In this document: positions 24,408 to 30,551 of the stretch, one piece after another
Position numbering within the stretch: the stretch's first letter is position 1
Layout of the letters: each line of letters starts with the position of its first letter
Assembly: GCF_038006045.1 (NCBI RefSeq)
Contig: NZ_JBBOUK010000001.1
Location: 2,459,001 to 2,523,000 of the forward strand
Length of the DNA: 64,000 nt
Direction of reading: 5' to 3'
From: Exiguobacterium sp. FSL W8-0210
GTDB taxonomy: Bacteria; Bacillota; Bacilli; Exiguobacteriales; Exiguobacteriaceae
Notes under the pieces: model-generated
What the model was told of the DNA's origin: nothing
Database searches by the model: none
Seen by the model: the letters and a program-made list of their open reading frames with translations, nothing else
Program-made: the position numbers and the translations under genes

Positions 24408-25241
24408 ATGCTATTGCTAAACAAGCTATCAGCTTCACAACAAGCTATTTTATTAGCTAGTATTCTCGGAGATGGAGAAATAACAAAGTGTTATCCAGGT
24501 TCTAGGCGAAAGAACAACAGCTATCGTGAACACTTTGGAGAGTCACAGCGTTTTTATCGGGAATGGAAGAGACAGCAACTTCCTGGTTTGTTATATATTC
24601 GTCAAAACAACTTAGTGTCACGCTCACTTCCTTTATTTACGGAACTTTATCCTTACTTTTATCCATTTGATCAAAAAGATGTTCCTATCGCCTTACTTCC
24701 CTCGTGTAATCACCCACTTTTCTTATTGACTCTCTATCTTGACGACGGTTCACTTATTGTCTCAAAGCGCTTTACATCCAAACAACAACTGATCGTTTCT
24801 CCTACAATCGCACTTTATCTTCAGTCCTTCTCGAAACAGTCACTAACACTTTTTTGTGAATGGTTAAATCATAATTTCCGACTCCATTTTAGAGTAGCGA
24901 AAACGTCGAATGGTTCCGGATATTTCTTGCGAACAACCCTTTTTGAAGATACGATGCAGTTTCTTGATTATTTGACACCCTATATAAATGAGTTACCTGA
25001 CTTTTCGTATAAACTCAATTGGGATATTCGAATGAAGCAAATACAACAGAATTACCCACATGTCCATGTCTTAAGTACAAAGCCGAATCGGTACTTCAGT
25101 GCATCAGAAATGGAACAATTGATGAATGATGTATCTAATCAAGTTCCTGTATCAGAAATCGCAAAACGCTTAAATCGGTCGACGTGGTCAATTTACGCCA
25201 AACTTAATGCCATCAAAAAAGGTCACGGAACGAGTCCGTGA
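24408..25241 (+). CDS. Free-standing LAGLIDADG-type homing endonuclease
   Basis: 277 residues. Two LAGLIDADG-like helices are visible, ILLASILGDGEI near residue 13-24 and LTLYLDDGSL near 105-115, so one chain could form a monomeric endonuclease. Each helix keeps the acidic residue at its end. A C-terminal helix-turn-helix-like stretch (VSEIAKRLNRSTWSIYAKLNAI) may aid DNA binding. The gene is clearly AT-richer than its flagellar neighbours, suggesting transfer. An AAAGGAGG ribosome binding site precedes it. It runs convergent to hag and lies outside the group I intron; its last codons and stop are within the hag terminator stem. Confidence 0.85.
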   Translation: MLLLNKLSASQQAILLASILGDGEITKCYPGSRRKNNSYREHFGESQRFYREWKRQQLPGLLYIRQNNLVSRSLPLFTELYPYFYPFDQKDVPIALLPSCNHPLFLLTLYLDDGSLIVSKRFTSKQQLIVSPTIALYLQSFSKQSLTLFCEWLNHNFRLHFRVAKTSNGSGYFLRTTLFEDTMQFLDYLTPYINELPDFSYKLNWDIRMKQIQQNYPHVHVLSTKPNRYFSASEMEQLMNDVSNQVPVSEIAKRLNRSTWSIYAKLNAIKKGHGTSP

Positions 25242-25243
25242 CC
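25214..25243 (-). terminator. hag terminator overlapping the end of the endonuclease gene
   Basis: Minus-strand stem GGTCACGG/CCGTGACC followed by six T, about 28 bases after the downstream flagellin stop (25271). The same bases encode the last residues and stop of the LAGLIDADG gene on the other strand. Confidence 0.88.
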
Positions 25244-25270
25244 TGAACAATCGATATGTGCCAATTACGA

Positions 25271-25315
25271 TTAACGGAGTAATTGGAGAACGCCTTGCGG
25301 CTGTTGGTTCGCTTG
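25271..25315 (-). other. Second copy of the flagellin C-terminal codons (putative hag exon 2)
   Basis: Reads Q A N Q Q P Q G V L Q L L R stop. It matches the C-terminus encoded at the end of the uninterrupted hag frame in 12 of 14 residues and 34 of 45 bases, mostly with synonymous changes. It has no start codon. It lies directly after the intron 3' end and just before the hag terminator. Joined to 25685 in hag it would give an in-frame, full-length flagellin. Confidence 0.75.
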
Positions 25316-25684
25316 CTACGCGCATTAGCTTTCGCTAATGATAAGACTATATCTTCATCCTAGATTTACTAGGAGCTGGGCACTTCCCCCGCCGTTTACG
25401 GAGTACGGATTTCATAACCATCGGACAAGTCCATTAGGTCGTCTATCCTAGTCGTTGAACCTTCACCAAGGTTTCCCTACAGGTGCTTGGCTGCTGATTG
25501 TCCAATCCTTAATGTTTTTCAGAACGATCACGCTCACCGTTTCCAGCCACGTTGTCGTACATCAAGGCTCTCAGGAGTTCCAGCAATTCACCCAGTCATG
25601 ATCTAATCCGTTACCAGATTAGACGCCCGGTAGTATCAATCATCGGAGGAGTTGAAGAACGCCCTGCGGTGTTTGATTCGATTG
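25316..25684 (-). ncRNA. Group I self-splicing intron in hag (boundaries provisional)
   Basis: Minus-strand RNA with a T4 td-like group I core. P2 is UCUAAUC/GAUUAGA (25617-25623 with 25602-25608). P3 is CUGGGUG/UGCCCAG (25589-25595 with 25376-25382). The P4 elements AUUGCUGG and AAUCAGCAGCC are present. P7 is GACUA in GUUCAACGACUA (25449-25453) with UAGUC in AAGAUAUAGUC (25345-25349). P8 is CCUAG/CUAGG, and P9 is CAUUAGC-GAAA-GCUAAUG (25323-25340). The simplest in-frame model splices after the U of a GCU codon (25685) and ends with G at 25316, giving 369 nt with no open reading frame in the core. I could not find a convincing six-base P1 for this site, so the 5' boundary may differ. The first 45 nt repeat the flagellin C-terminus plus stop. 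Confidence 0.88.
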
Positions 25685-27031
25685 AGCCAACATTGCTTGT
25701 GCAGCTTGTGCAAGAATCGAGTTCTTTGTTTGGTTCATCATTTCTTTTGCCATATCAACGTCACGAACGCGAGATTCAGCCGCTGTTAGGTTTTCAGAAG
25801 ATGTTTTGAGGTTGTTGATTGTATGCTCTAGACGGTTTTGGAATCCACCTAGTTTTGAACGTTCTGCTGAAACGTTTTTAATAGCATTATCAATAACTTC
25901 GATTGCTTTCGTTGCTTTATCGTGAGTAGATACATCTAGTGCCGCCTCACTTAACGAATCTGTAGTACCGTTCGAAACACTATTAGCTGTTGTAAAGCTA
26001 GCACCGACTGTTGCATTTGTGCTGTTCTCCACATCGCTAACACCGTTTGCAACTGCACCAGCAGTACCTGATAATCCTAATGAAGCTGCTCGCATATCAT
26101 TAACTGAAATAACAAATGCTTGTCCATTATTAGCTCCAATTTGCAAACGCGCTGCTCCACCAGTTCCGCTAGAACCTTCAACAACATCACTAATTGTGGC
26201 TGCGCGACCCGACTTAAATTCGATGCTATCTTTACCAGAAGTTCCCGCGAAAGCACCTGTAGAGTTAGCAGTTATTTTTAATTTATTTGCATCGTTAGTG
26301 AAAGTAAAGTCTTTAGTTGACAAAGTAGGATCTGATCCTCGCATGTCGTTAAAAGCCTTAACTAAGTCATTTGTAAGTTGCGTAGCTGTTGGTGCAATCC
26401 CTGCTCCAGTACCATTACCAGTTTTAACGGTAATTGTTTTTGCTCCCGCATTAAAAGTAGTTGAGTTTGCAGTGTAGTTTGCGTCAGCCTCAAAGTTAAT
26501 TGTATAGTCAGAACCACCAATTGTTAATGTAGTAGATCCAGTGTTGTTAGCTGAAATTCCAAAATCAAATGTAGCTGAAGCATTTGCTGCACCTACTCCA
26601 CTATTTCCTTTAACATCTCCGTTTAATAATTTTTTTGTATTAAACTCTGTAGTGTTACCAATGCGGTTGATTTCAGAAGTCAACTGATTGATTTCTTTTT
26701 GAATTTCAGAACGGTCAGTAGTTGTATTTGTATCGTTTGCTGACTGTGTTCCTAATTCGCGCATCCGTTGAAGAATGTCATGTGTCTCGTTCAACGCACC
26801 CTCAGCTGTTTGAATCAATGAGATACCGTCTTGTGAATTTCGTGAAGCTTGATCCAGTCCACGAACTTGAGCACGCATTTTTTCAGAGATCGCAAGACCA
26901 GCTGCATCGTCTCCTGCTTTGTTGATACGAAGACCTGAAGCCAGTTTCTCCATTGACTTACTTTGTGCTGCAGTAGCTGCAGACAATTTGTTGTGCGTGT
27001 TGAGTGCTGTTACGTTGTGATTGATAATCAT
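25640..27031 (-). CDS. hag: Major flagellin Hag (uninterrupted reading frame)
   Basis: 463 residues. The conserved D0/D1 ends (MIINHNVTALNTHNKL, SGLRINKAGDDAAGLAISEKMRAQ; SSENLTAAESRVRDVDMAKEMM) flank a large Thr/Ser/Asn/Ala-rich variable domain (about residues 140-370) that is AT-richer than the ends. The last 14 codons and the TGA are, in the intron model, intron sequence; spliced mRNA would instead use the copy at 25271-25315. Both products end in PQGVLQLLR. Translation starts at an ATG with GGAGGG upstream. A sigma-D promoter and a structured leader with GGA sites lie upstream; csrA and fliW, the known post-transcriptional regulators of hag in Bacillus, are in the same window. Confidence 0.96.
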   Translation of the reverse strand: MIINHNVTALNTHNKLSAATAAQSKSMEKLASGLRINKAGDDAAGLAISEKMRAQVRGLDQASRNSQDGISLIQTAEGALNETHDILQRMRELGTQSANDTNTTTDRSEIQKEINQLTSEINRIGNTTEFNTKKLLNGDVKGNSGVGAANASATFDFGISANNTGSTTLTIGGSDYTINFEADANYTANSTTFNAGAKTITVKTGNGTGAGIAPTATQLTNDLVKAFNDMRGSDPTLSTKDFTFTNDANKLKITANSTGAFAGTSGKDSIEFKSGRAATISDVVEGSSGTGGAARLQIGANNGQAFVISVNDMRAASLGLSGTAGAVANGVSDVENSTNATVGASFTTANSVSNGTTDSLSEAALDVSTHDKATKAIEVIDNAIKNVSAERSKLGGFQNRLEHTINNLKTSSENLTAAESRVRDVDMAKEMMNQTKNSILAQAAQAMLAQSNQTPQGVLQLLR

Positions 27032-28692: not shown

Positions 28693-30201
28693 TTATTTCC
28701 GCTCGATCTCTACATACTTATATGAGATATCCGTTCCGACATTATGACGGGCGAGGTTCTTGACTTCCGTGTTTTGCAGGAAAGCATTCTTCCGTTGGTA
28801 GACCGGTGAGATCGCTTGATCGTCGAGCAACAGGCTTTCTGCTTTACTGAGTAAGGCAAGGCGTTTGTCTTGATCGAGTTCACTTTCAGCCTGTTTCAAG
28901 AGACGGTCATACTTTTTGTTCGAGTAGTCCATCATGTTGAACGGGTTACCCGTCGTGAACAAGTTCAGGTATGTCGTTGCATCCTGATAGTCCGGAGCCC
29001 AGCTCGCGAGTGACAGGTCGTAGTCCCCTCGTCCTTCACGGGCGAGACGTTCTTTCTTCGGAAGTGATAACAGTTTCACGTCGACGTTTTGTTTCTTCAA
29101 TGCGCCTTGGATATACTCCCCGATTTTTTTCGAGACGTCGTCATCTTCGATCAACATCGTCAGCTCAAGGTTTTGCTTGGCCAACACTTTGTTTGCCGCT
29201 GTTGCATCGTACGACGATTCGATTTGACGCGCACTATCGTACTTCGGATCAAGTTCTTTCGGTACGATGTAATCCGCAGGGAGTGATCCGTTTCCGAGCA
29301 ACGTTTCCGTCATCGCTTTTTTATCATATGCTGCATCAATCGCTTGGCGTGTTTCTTTATCTTTCAAGGCATCTGTTTTTTCGTTCATCCGTATGAAGAA
29401 CATCCGCGAATCGCTGAACGTGTTGTAGTCTTTTTGATCCTTGTACGTCACGACGTTCTCCGAGTTGAGTGGTGCGACATCGAGTTCACCGGACTCGAAT
29501 AGGTTGATCGCAAGCATCGGATCCTTGATGATTTTGACGTCGACTTCGTCGATCTTGACGTTTTTTCGGTCTGCGTACTCAGCGTTTTTCGCGAGTGTAT
29601 AGCCTTGTTCGGCTTGATATTTCTTGAATGTGAACGGTCCGTTGTAAACGTTCGTCTTTGGATCCGTTCCGAACTGGTCGCCTTCAGCTTTGACGATATC
29701 TTCCCGGACTGGCATATACGTGCCGAACGTCGTCATGCTGAGGAAGTATGGCGTCGGACGTTTCAATTCGATCCGGAGCGTCTCATCGTCGACCGCTGTC
29801 GTTTTTTCGACTGGCTCGAGCAAATAAGCGAATGGTGAGTTCGTTTTGATGACGCGCTCGAATGCATAACGGAAGTTCTCTGCTGTGACGGGCTTTCCGT
29901 CAGACCATTTCGCATTCGGATCAAGCTTGAACGTATAGACTTTTCCGTCTTCTGAGACGCTATGTGATTTCGCTGCCGCCGGAACGAGTTCGTTGTTCGC
30001 GTCGAAGCGATAGAGTCCTTCGTAGATTTGATTGAAGATGTTTGACGTGATGGCATCTGCTGGGTCAACCGACAGAAGGTCGTAACTCTCCATCGTATGC
30101 AAGACCTTCTTATCTGCTTTTTTATCCTCTGCTGGTTCTGTCGTTGCACATCCTACGAGTAAAACTGCCGTGCTCGCCGCTGCGATCAATGTCTTTTTCA
30201 T
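28693..30201 (-). CDS. Oligopeptide ABC transporter substrate-binding lipoprotein (OppA-like)
   Basis: 502 residues, SBP family 5. A signal peptide ends in the lipobox LLVGC (Cys near residue 18). The mature domain shows DPADAITSNIFNQIYEGLYRFD and DGKPVTAENFRYAFERV, hallmarks of peptide-binding proteins. It captures extracellular peptides for an Opp-type importer. No permease or ATPase genes are beside it, so it must share a transporter encoded elsewhere. The mRNA leader is a T-box, so expression responds to an uncharged tRNA. CAGGAGG precedes the ATG. Confidence 0.93.
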   Translation of the reverse strand: MKKTLIAAASTAVLLVGCATTEPAEDKKADKKVLHTMESYDLLSVDPADAITSNIFNQIYEGLYRFDANNELVPAAAKSHSVSEDGKVYTFKLDPNAKWSDGKPVTAENFRYAFERVIKTNSPFAYLLEPVEKTTAVDDETLRIELKRPTPYFLSMTTFGTYMPVREDIVKAEGDQFGTDPKTNVYNGPFTFKKYQAEQGYTLAKNAEYADRKNVKIDEVDVKIIKDPMLAINLFESGELDVAPLNSENVVTYKDQKDYNTFSDSRMFFIRMNEKTDALKDKETRQAIDAAYDKKAMTETLLGNGSLPADYIVPKELDPKYDSARQIESSYDATAANKVLAKQNLELTMLIEDDDVSKKIGEYIQGALKKQNVDVKLLSLPKKERLAREGRGDYDLSLASWAPDYQDATTYLNLFTTGNPFNMMDYSNKKYDRLLKQAESELDQDKRLALLSKAESLLLDDQAISPVYQRKNAFLQNTEVKNLARHNVGTDISYKYVEIERK

Positions 30202-30260
30202 GTGTAGTGCCTCCTGAGAAATGTGATGAGCGTTGGATGATTCGGCATTTGACGTACAAC

Positions 30261-30551
30261 AAAAGGCGCCCTCTACGCATAGCTAACAGCTAATGCATAG
30301 AGGACGCCTTTATCCGCGCGGTGCCACCTCTGATTGAGACGAAAAATCGTCTCCACTTGTCGCTGGTCCAACAACCAGCTAGCCCGGTAACGGGGGCAAC
30401 CGTCCTGTCTACTCGAAGGTTCAACAGGCTCTCAGCGGTCCATTCTCGTTCAGCTTACCGTGTCAGACTCTCACCATTCCTGACTCGCTTGGTCGGCAGT
30501 GTTGACGTTACTTACTCCGCGTCGTCGATGTAATTGATATGGCTTAACTTG
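30261..30551 (-). ncRNA. T-box riboswitch controlling the peptide-binding protein gene
   Basis: Minus-strand leader of ~290 nt with Stem I elements (GACGACGCGGAGTAAGTAA and an AG-rich distal loop). The antiterminator T-box AGAGGUGGCACCGCG lies at 30317-30331, followed by a strong terminator (AAAGGCGTCCTCTATGC paired with GCGTAGAGGGCGCCTTTT, 30261-30311). The T-box sequence pairs with the free NCCA end of uncharged tRNA. The specifier codon is not certain: in GAACGAGAAUGGACC, UGG (Trp) or GAG (Glu) are both possible. Confidence 0.93.

Follow-up and report, generated by a model that had tools for sequence, protein, structure and literature searches.

A standing question is how self-splicing introns survive in bacterial genes that are heavily translated, in which ribosomes contend with ribozyme folding. 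Group I introns are known in the flagellin genes of thermophilic Bacillus and Geobacillus (Hayakawa & Ishizuka 2009, 2012, as cited in PMC3984707), and the same review presents in-frame stop codons near the 5′ ends of group I introns as stalling ribosomes and aiding intron folding. It also describes ORF-less introns that are paired with a separate endonuclease gene near the insertion site. The nearest known idea to the one developed here comes from mitochondrial mobile ORFs, which bring a foreign gene tail to Allomyces atp6 and to Glomus atp6, atp9, cox2, and nad3 (PMC3630166). As described there, an endonuclease element carries an in-frame duplicate of the host C-terminus, the native tail lies downstream, and the two copies are diverged in DNA but similar in protein. 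In that account, however, the insert stays in the transcript, and the native tails of atp6 and cox2 were not found in mRNA. In Clostridium tetani, the intron C.te.I1 of a surface-layer gene is likewise a bacterial ribozyme whose spliced and unspliced mRNAs give distinct isoforms; it differs in being a group II intron with four alternative splicing reactions, and its abstract mentions no re-encoding of the same tail (PMC3919590).

The flagellin gene hag of Exiguobacterium offers an answer that can be read from the sequence: the intron brings along the missing protein end. Within the window, by which we mean the whole 64,000-nucleotide stretch of DNA that was analysed, the intron in hag opens with a second coding copy of the flagellin tail, which we call the mimic. 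We consider it very probable, as one joint reading, that the hag intron is a site-specific group I intron inserted in phase 0 between the codons for ...MLA and QANQQPQGVLQLLR, and that the mimic serves as a splicing fail-safe, so that leaving the intron in the mRNA of a very highly translated gene would do no harm. The introns of Hayakawa & Ishizuka are likewise group I introns in a flagellin gene of Bacilli; relative to them, and as far as the review PMC3984707 allows the comparison, the present analysis shows the mimic, the selection acting on it, and its position within the P1 loop. Unlike the mitochondrial ORFs, the hag element could be removed by a ribozyme, and both of its tails are conserved as protein. 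The early in-frame stops described for other group I introns have counterparts in two mimic-less relatives (G059 and G070), whereas in hag the codons ahead of the stop supply the end of the host protein. Among the matches listed in a literature search covering titles and the starts of abstracts, with most subscription journals outside it, no group I intron re-encoded the tail of its host. The features of the locus are as follows, with a caret marking a splice site.

24408..25241, plus strand: free-standing putative LAGLIDADG_2 homing endonuclease gene (PF03161), convergent with hag, its 3′ end overlapping the hag terminator
25215..25244, minus strand: hag terminator hairpin and T run, 10-bp stem
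25271..25315, minus strand: putative hag exon 2, native C-terminus QANQQPQGVLQLLR and TAA (G009; pN/pS 0.08, 50 distinct copies)
25316..25684, minus strand: putative group I intron, 369 nt, omega-G = 25316 (RF00028; G009; T and omega-G in 75/75)
25323..25601, minus strand: ribozyme core P3-P9 (RF00028 alignment)
25602..25623, minus strand: P2 hairpin TCTAATC/GATTAGA (by eye)
25625..25628, minus strand: P1 3′ strand, internal guide GGGC (GGGC with GCT in 72, GGGA with TCT in 3)
25635..25639, minus strand: P1 extension 3′ strand UUGAU, right after the mimic stop (cognate versus permuted pairing)
25640..25684, minus strand: coding mimic in the P1 loop, QSNQTPQGVLQLLR and TGA (14 codons and stop in 72/75; pN/pS 0.224)
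25673..25677, minus strand: P1 extension 5′ strand AUCAA, in mimic codons 3-4 (cognate versus permuted pairing)
25684..25687, minus strand: P1 5′ strand GCU^C, three exon bases and the first intron base (GCT^C in 72, TCT^C in 3 of 75)
25685..27031, minus strand: hag exon 1, flagellin to ...QAMLA (ORF 25640-27031; Flagellin_N and Flagellin_C)

In the ORF list, the flagellin frame of hag (27031-25640, minus strand) runs through exon 1 into the intron. A group I core had been predicted on the minus strand from its helices, and an Infernal search bears this out: RF00028 matches 25648-25323 (minus strand) over the whole model (1-253 of 253) with 80 bits and an E value of 1e-18, the gathering score being 50, and the conserved catalytic core P3-P9 is present. 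At E ≤0.001 this is the sole match in the window's genome. With the mimic as its C-terminus, the hag ORF covers the Flagellin_C profile from 1 to 86 of 86, and gene callers guided by the open frame would annotate the end of flagellin in such genomes from the unspliced tail. A PDB sequence search gave 65 matches, the best 60 of them named flagellin or alike, and none of the five alignments examined ends in a mimic-type tail. Beyond the gene, a 46-nt piece across the hag terminator (25255-25210) folds at −18.3 kcal/mol (z −3.5).

The upstream copy of the tail reads QSNQTPQGVLQLLR-TGA and the downstream copy QANQQPQGVLQLLR-TAA. A recount agrees with the original prediction that the two 45-base copies have 34 bases in common, and 12 of their 14 codons specify the same residue. 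Unspliced hag would end ...MLA-QSNQTPQGVLQLLR-stop, and the sequence after the intron is QANQQPQGVLQLLR-stop. The comparison with an intronless allele that had been suggested at the outset separates the two copies: in G009, a genome of the same genus, hag has a single tail copy, one base off the window's downstream copy, followed by a 3′ flank that starts TAATCGTAATTGG, as in the window. The downstream copy is therefore native and the upstream one intron-borne. The better-supported boundaries put the 5′ splice site after GCT (25685) and the 3′ splice site after G25316, for a predicted intron of 369 nt. They are backed by the G009 allele, by the T that precedes the intron and the terminal omega-G that ends it in 75 of 75 introns at this insertion point, which we call site B, and by a compensated P1.

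A convincing P1 at the in-frame site was missing from the original prediction, and one can now be put forward. In 72 of the 75 site-B introns, the last three exon bases and the first intron base, GCU^C, pair with GGGC, a short helix of three exon pairs and one intron pair in which the 5′ splice site follows a U paired with G, as expected of a group I intron. The other three introns, from related genomes, have UCU^C with GGGA, so that both sides of one pair are changed. This TCT/GGGA exchange is why we accept GCU^C:GGGC over other registers; the three genomes share one genus code, and the exchange may be a single event. A brute-force scan of 20 sequences, in which other registers ranked above it, recovered the GCU/GGC register with its U.G pair in 20 of 20 but with only 3 of the 6 exon pairs. 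Placements of P1 at GGCGU^ inside the mimic, at ACUYCU^, and at the stop-codon U with the P2 strand were dropped, since the frame, the omega-G, or the wider family disagrees with them. P10, between exon 2 and the guide sequence, amounts by eye to a single clear pair and is weak, as it is in many group I introns.

The mimic sits in the loop of P1, since its codons 2-5 pair with the stretch that separates its stop from the guide. In 54 distinct combinations, this P1 extension duplex averages −6.75 kcal/mol for cognate strands and −4.00 kcal/mol (sd 0.26) for permuted ones, with 0 of 10,000 permutations as low; our permutation tests, of pairing and of coding alike, ignore the relatedness of the sequences. 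Control pairings with the stretch after the stop gave −3.17 for the start of the native tail and −2.80 for mimic codons 8-14. The window's own extension is among the weaker ones (5 bp, −3.2). In the mimic-less G059 and G070, the same place is taken, by eye, by hairpins of 8 bp and 9 bp (one G.U) whose loop holds a stop in frame.

Tail mimicry is not private to the window's genome. The hag intron is present in 14 of 19 genomes of the genus, counting the window's, and absent from 5, and the same 5′ end recurs in eight stretches of named records, among them Exiguobacterium antarcticum, E. undae, E. flavidum, and E. sibiricum 255-15. In the sister genus, 6 of 19 genomes have the intron in a flagellin gene, with a more diverged mimic. 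Together with 55 introns from the wider Bacilli, these give the 75 introns of site B (MLA^Q), which are a non-random sample. Our RF00028 searches took in 398 genomes of Bacilli class-wide, plus two family searches of 250 and 41 genomes; filters were stricter above 40 genomes, and for the 250-genome search the results are those among the matches listed. The 120 regions that we hand-picked, mostly high scoring, comprise 55 with a site-B intron, 25 with site A only, and 40 with neither. Presence at site B was called from the native tail after the intron, independent of the mimic, and the two copies of the same locus in the G022 assembly were counted once.

Of the 75 introns, 72 start with a re-encoded flagellin tail of exactly 14 codons and a stop, and mimic-bearing introns occur in eight family codes (f1, f2, f3, f8, f15, f33, f37, and f58). 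Past the intron, all 75 loci preserve a native tail of 14 codons followed by a stop. With the intron in 14 of 19 genus genomes and the mimic kept at this rate, the likeness is far beyond chance. G059 and G070 have site-B introns without a mimic, and G603 (L190) holds the sole frameshifted mimic of 73, altered by one base, either a natural knock-out or a sequencing error. To judge from these three genomes, the mimic is dispensable in some hosts. In a midpoint-rooted tree of intron cores, G059 and G070 fall at two places among mimic-bearing introns, G070 on a long branch, a pattern compatible with two losses but no proof of them.

Related introns occupy a second insertion point in the flagellin gene, site A (...ESRIRDVD^MAKEMM), and the 23 of them placed in the same tree form one group. 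In the loci inspected, their 5′ frame ends after a few codons and the mimic is absent; the missing tail would be much longer there than at site B. Cost, translation, and splicing can be compared across the family, since site B has introns with an intact mimic, with a frameshifted one, and with none, and the second site in the gene is free of mimics. Many of the hand-picked Bacilli loci (L119-L242, e.g., L123, L139, and L145) have site-A and site-B introns in one flagellin gene, with an exon of ∼70 nt between them. The core of the G151 intron (L167) groups with those of G377 (L119) and G556 (L214), and its mimic is of the QAQQTP type of other cores; this mismatch suggests recombination between the P1-mimic module and the core. 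Some sister-genus mimics (L072-L077) are, by eye, nearer to the intronless hag tails GCGGTTCTTCAACTTCTTCG (L247-L252) than to their own native tail, a hint that the mimic derived from a resident hag tail that was left upstream as the intron arrived with a donor tail.

Both tails bear the marks of coding constraint. The 63 distinct mimics have a pN of 0.162 and a pS of 0.726, a ratio of 0.224, and in codons 6-14, outside the pairing part, pN is 0.108, pS 0.755, and the ratio 0.143. When mimic bases are read in the other two frames the ratios are 1.1 and 4.2 (1.1-6.5 over both copies). The 50 distinct native tails have a pN/pS of 0.08. G059, G070, and G603 were excluded from the coding and pairing tests, in which identical sequences were counted once. 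Residues 9-13, V-L-Q-L-L, are invariant in the 63 distinct mimics, and every synonymous codon of each occurs; the final position holds arginine in 61 (CGG, CGA, CGT, AGA, and AGG), with lysine and glycine in one mimic each. A within-codon permutation of mimic codons 6-14 gave p 2e-4, relatedness being ignored. These patterns indicate protein-level purifying selection on the intron-borne C-terminus. Because the mimic is conserved as protein and its synonymous sites are near saturation, it is likely that ribosomes translate the unspliced mRNA and that selection acts on it; the conservation of the native copy suggests that the spliced mRNA matters too. The proposal that flagellin can be completed from either mRNA is therefore judged to be supported, since both copies are conserved as protein and splice sites that restore the frame are backed.

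Several other readings of the locus have to be weighed against these observations. The original prediction itself raised the alternative that the intron lies after the first stop, which would make the first copy the real C-terminus and the second a non-coding remnant. The Rfam alignment agrees with this insofar as it sets P1 over the stop-codon region (25648 on), starting inside the mimic tail. We dropped that register because the U required just past the stop is lost in relatives such as G013 (by eye); GCU^C:GGGC, by contrast, persists and shows compensation. The supposed remnant and the start of its 3′ flank match G009, its pN/pS of 0.08 is that of a constrained coding sequence, and the omega-G stands directly before it in 75 of 75 loci; an intron after the stop is thus disfavoured and, in our judgment, very unlikely. 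Gene conversion might instead keep the tails alike, with no protein selection on the mimic. At residue 8, native and mimic agree in 58 of 72 loci (G/G 49, A/A 9) and differ in 14 (Q/S 10, G/A 4), the only host ending LLG has a mimic that ends LLG too, and third-base identity of mimic and native tail over codons 9-13 is slightly higher within genomes (0.42) than between them (0.36). Yet frequent conversion would erase synonymous differences, and with these identities, and a whole-copy identity within genomes that averages 0.70, conversion is not the main cause of the likeness. It should also leave disabled mimics at neutral frequency, whereas one frameshift in 73 was found, and mimic pS is near saturation while pN is low. 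We regard conversion without protein selection as quite unlikely, the effect of conversion seeming weak rather than absent.

It could also be that the intron no longer splices, leaving the mimic as the sole tail produced, given that the unspliced frame already yields a complete flagellin. A native tail that is intact in 75 of 75 loci at a pN/pS of 0.08, behind a core that scores 80 bits, makes this extremely unlikely. Nor does the mimic look like a DNA decoy or immunity element against the flanking homing endonuclease, a scarcely conceivable role even with a LAGLIDADG gene or remnant beside 37 of 75 loci: 36 of the 72 mimic-bearing loci have no such gene in the flank examined, and synonymous sites near saturation indicate that the DNA sequence of the mimic is not what is kept. 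A regulated isoform switch, in which splicing efficiency responding to temperature or GTP would pick between two functionally different tails, is doubtful but less so. Mimic and native tail differ mainly at residues 2-5, and a 2012 paper cited in PMC3984707 names temperature-dependent self-splicing flagellin introns in its title; the same residues pair in the P1 extension, however, and RNA pairing alone may explain the differences. In a broader and speculative version, to which we give a modest chance, the re-encoding of a tail in the P1 loop would be an old adaptation (at least eight Bacilli families, perhaps lost twice) that turned a selfish ribozyme into an isoform switch set by splicing, for example with temperature.

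Under the fail-safe reading, which we prefer, splicing at GCU^C with GGGC and at omega-G 25316 would join exon 2 to exon 1 and give the native tail. Without splicing, or before it, a ribosome leaving exon 1 would read the mimic and release a full-length flagellin ending SNQTPQGVLQLLR. The mimic stop precedes P2 and the core and would keep ribosomes off the ribozyme, and the first mimic codons would double as the P1 extension, with a role in RNA and one in protein. Comparison of sequences shows the core, the boundaries, the compensation in P1, the covariation of the P1 extension, and both tails under coding constraint; from it we infer that the intron splices in vivo, that ribosomes translate the unspliced mRNA, and that there is a benefit to fitness. 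An intron that is nearly cost-free to its host and closed to ribosomes in its core, as originally proposed, would follow. A tryptic peptide would separate the two flagellin forms (endings SNQTPQGVLQLLR versus ANQQPQGVLQLLR), and existing proteomes could be re-read for it.

The neighbouring gene at 24408-25241 (plus strand) encodes a product that matches PF03161 with 43.6 bits (cut-off 25), with GDG and DDG motifs by eye. It shares with the ORF-less introns of PMC3984707 the arrangement of an intron and a separate endonuclease gene near the insertion site; it differs in that the LAGLIDADG gene is convergent, lies beyond the host terminator, and occurs in bacterial chromosomes with and without the intron. 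Downstream and on the opposite strand, 37 of 75 site-B introns are followed by a LAGLIDADG relative or remnant, versus 4 of 25 site-A-only loci (p 0.004), counted in flanks of 0.5-2.5 kb, mostly 0.5-0.8, with some hits short remnants or cut by the sequence end and relatedness uncorrected. As evidence for a collaborative homing pair, the observed link is this proximity. In flanks of this size, none of the five intronless hag genes of the genus has a downstream LAGLIDADG relative or remnant. In the sister genus, one stands beside intronless hag in G020, G024, G028, and G029 and, broken, in G037, and G034 has a short LAGLIDADG fragment match near its flagellin genes; this comparison covered six of the 13 intron-free genomes there. 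The five genes show that the endonuclease gene is not limited to intron-bearing alleles; intronless alleles that have it are allowed by the collaborative homing model itself. At the hag 3′ end, LAGLIDADG relatives are on the opposite strand in every match, with or without the intron. The gene is a free-standing flanker of hag rather than a fixed part of the intron, and it may help the intron to spread.

Elsewhere in the window, a T-box leader (RF00230, 98 bits) at 30297-30534 (minus strand) lies just upstream of an ORF at 28693-30282 (minus strand) whose start, MKKTLIAAASTAVLLVGCATTE, resembles that of a secreted lipoprotein, which is not known as a common T-box target. In the sister genus, L078, L079, L081, and L085 hold another, weaker group I intron that lies, by eye, apparently inside a tRNA gene, and L080, L082, L083, L086, and L087 give similar weak group I intron matches.
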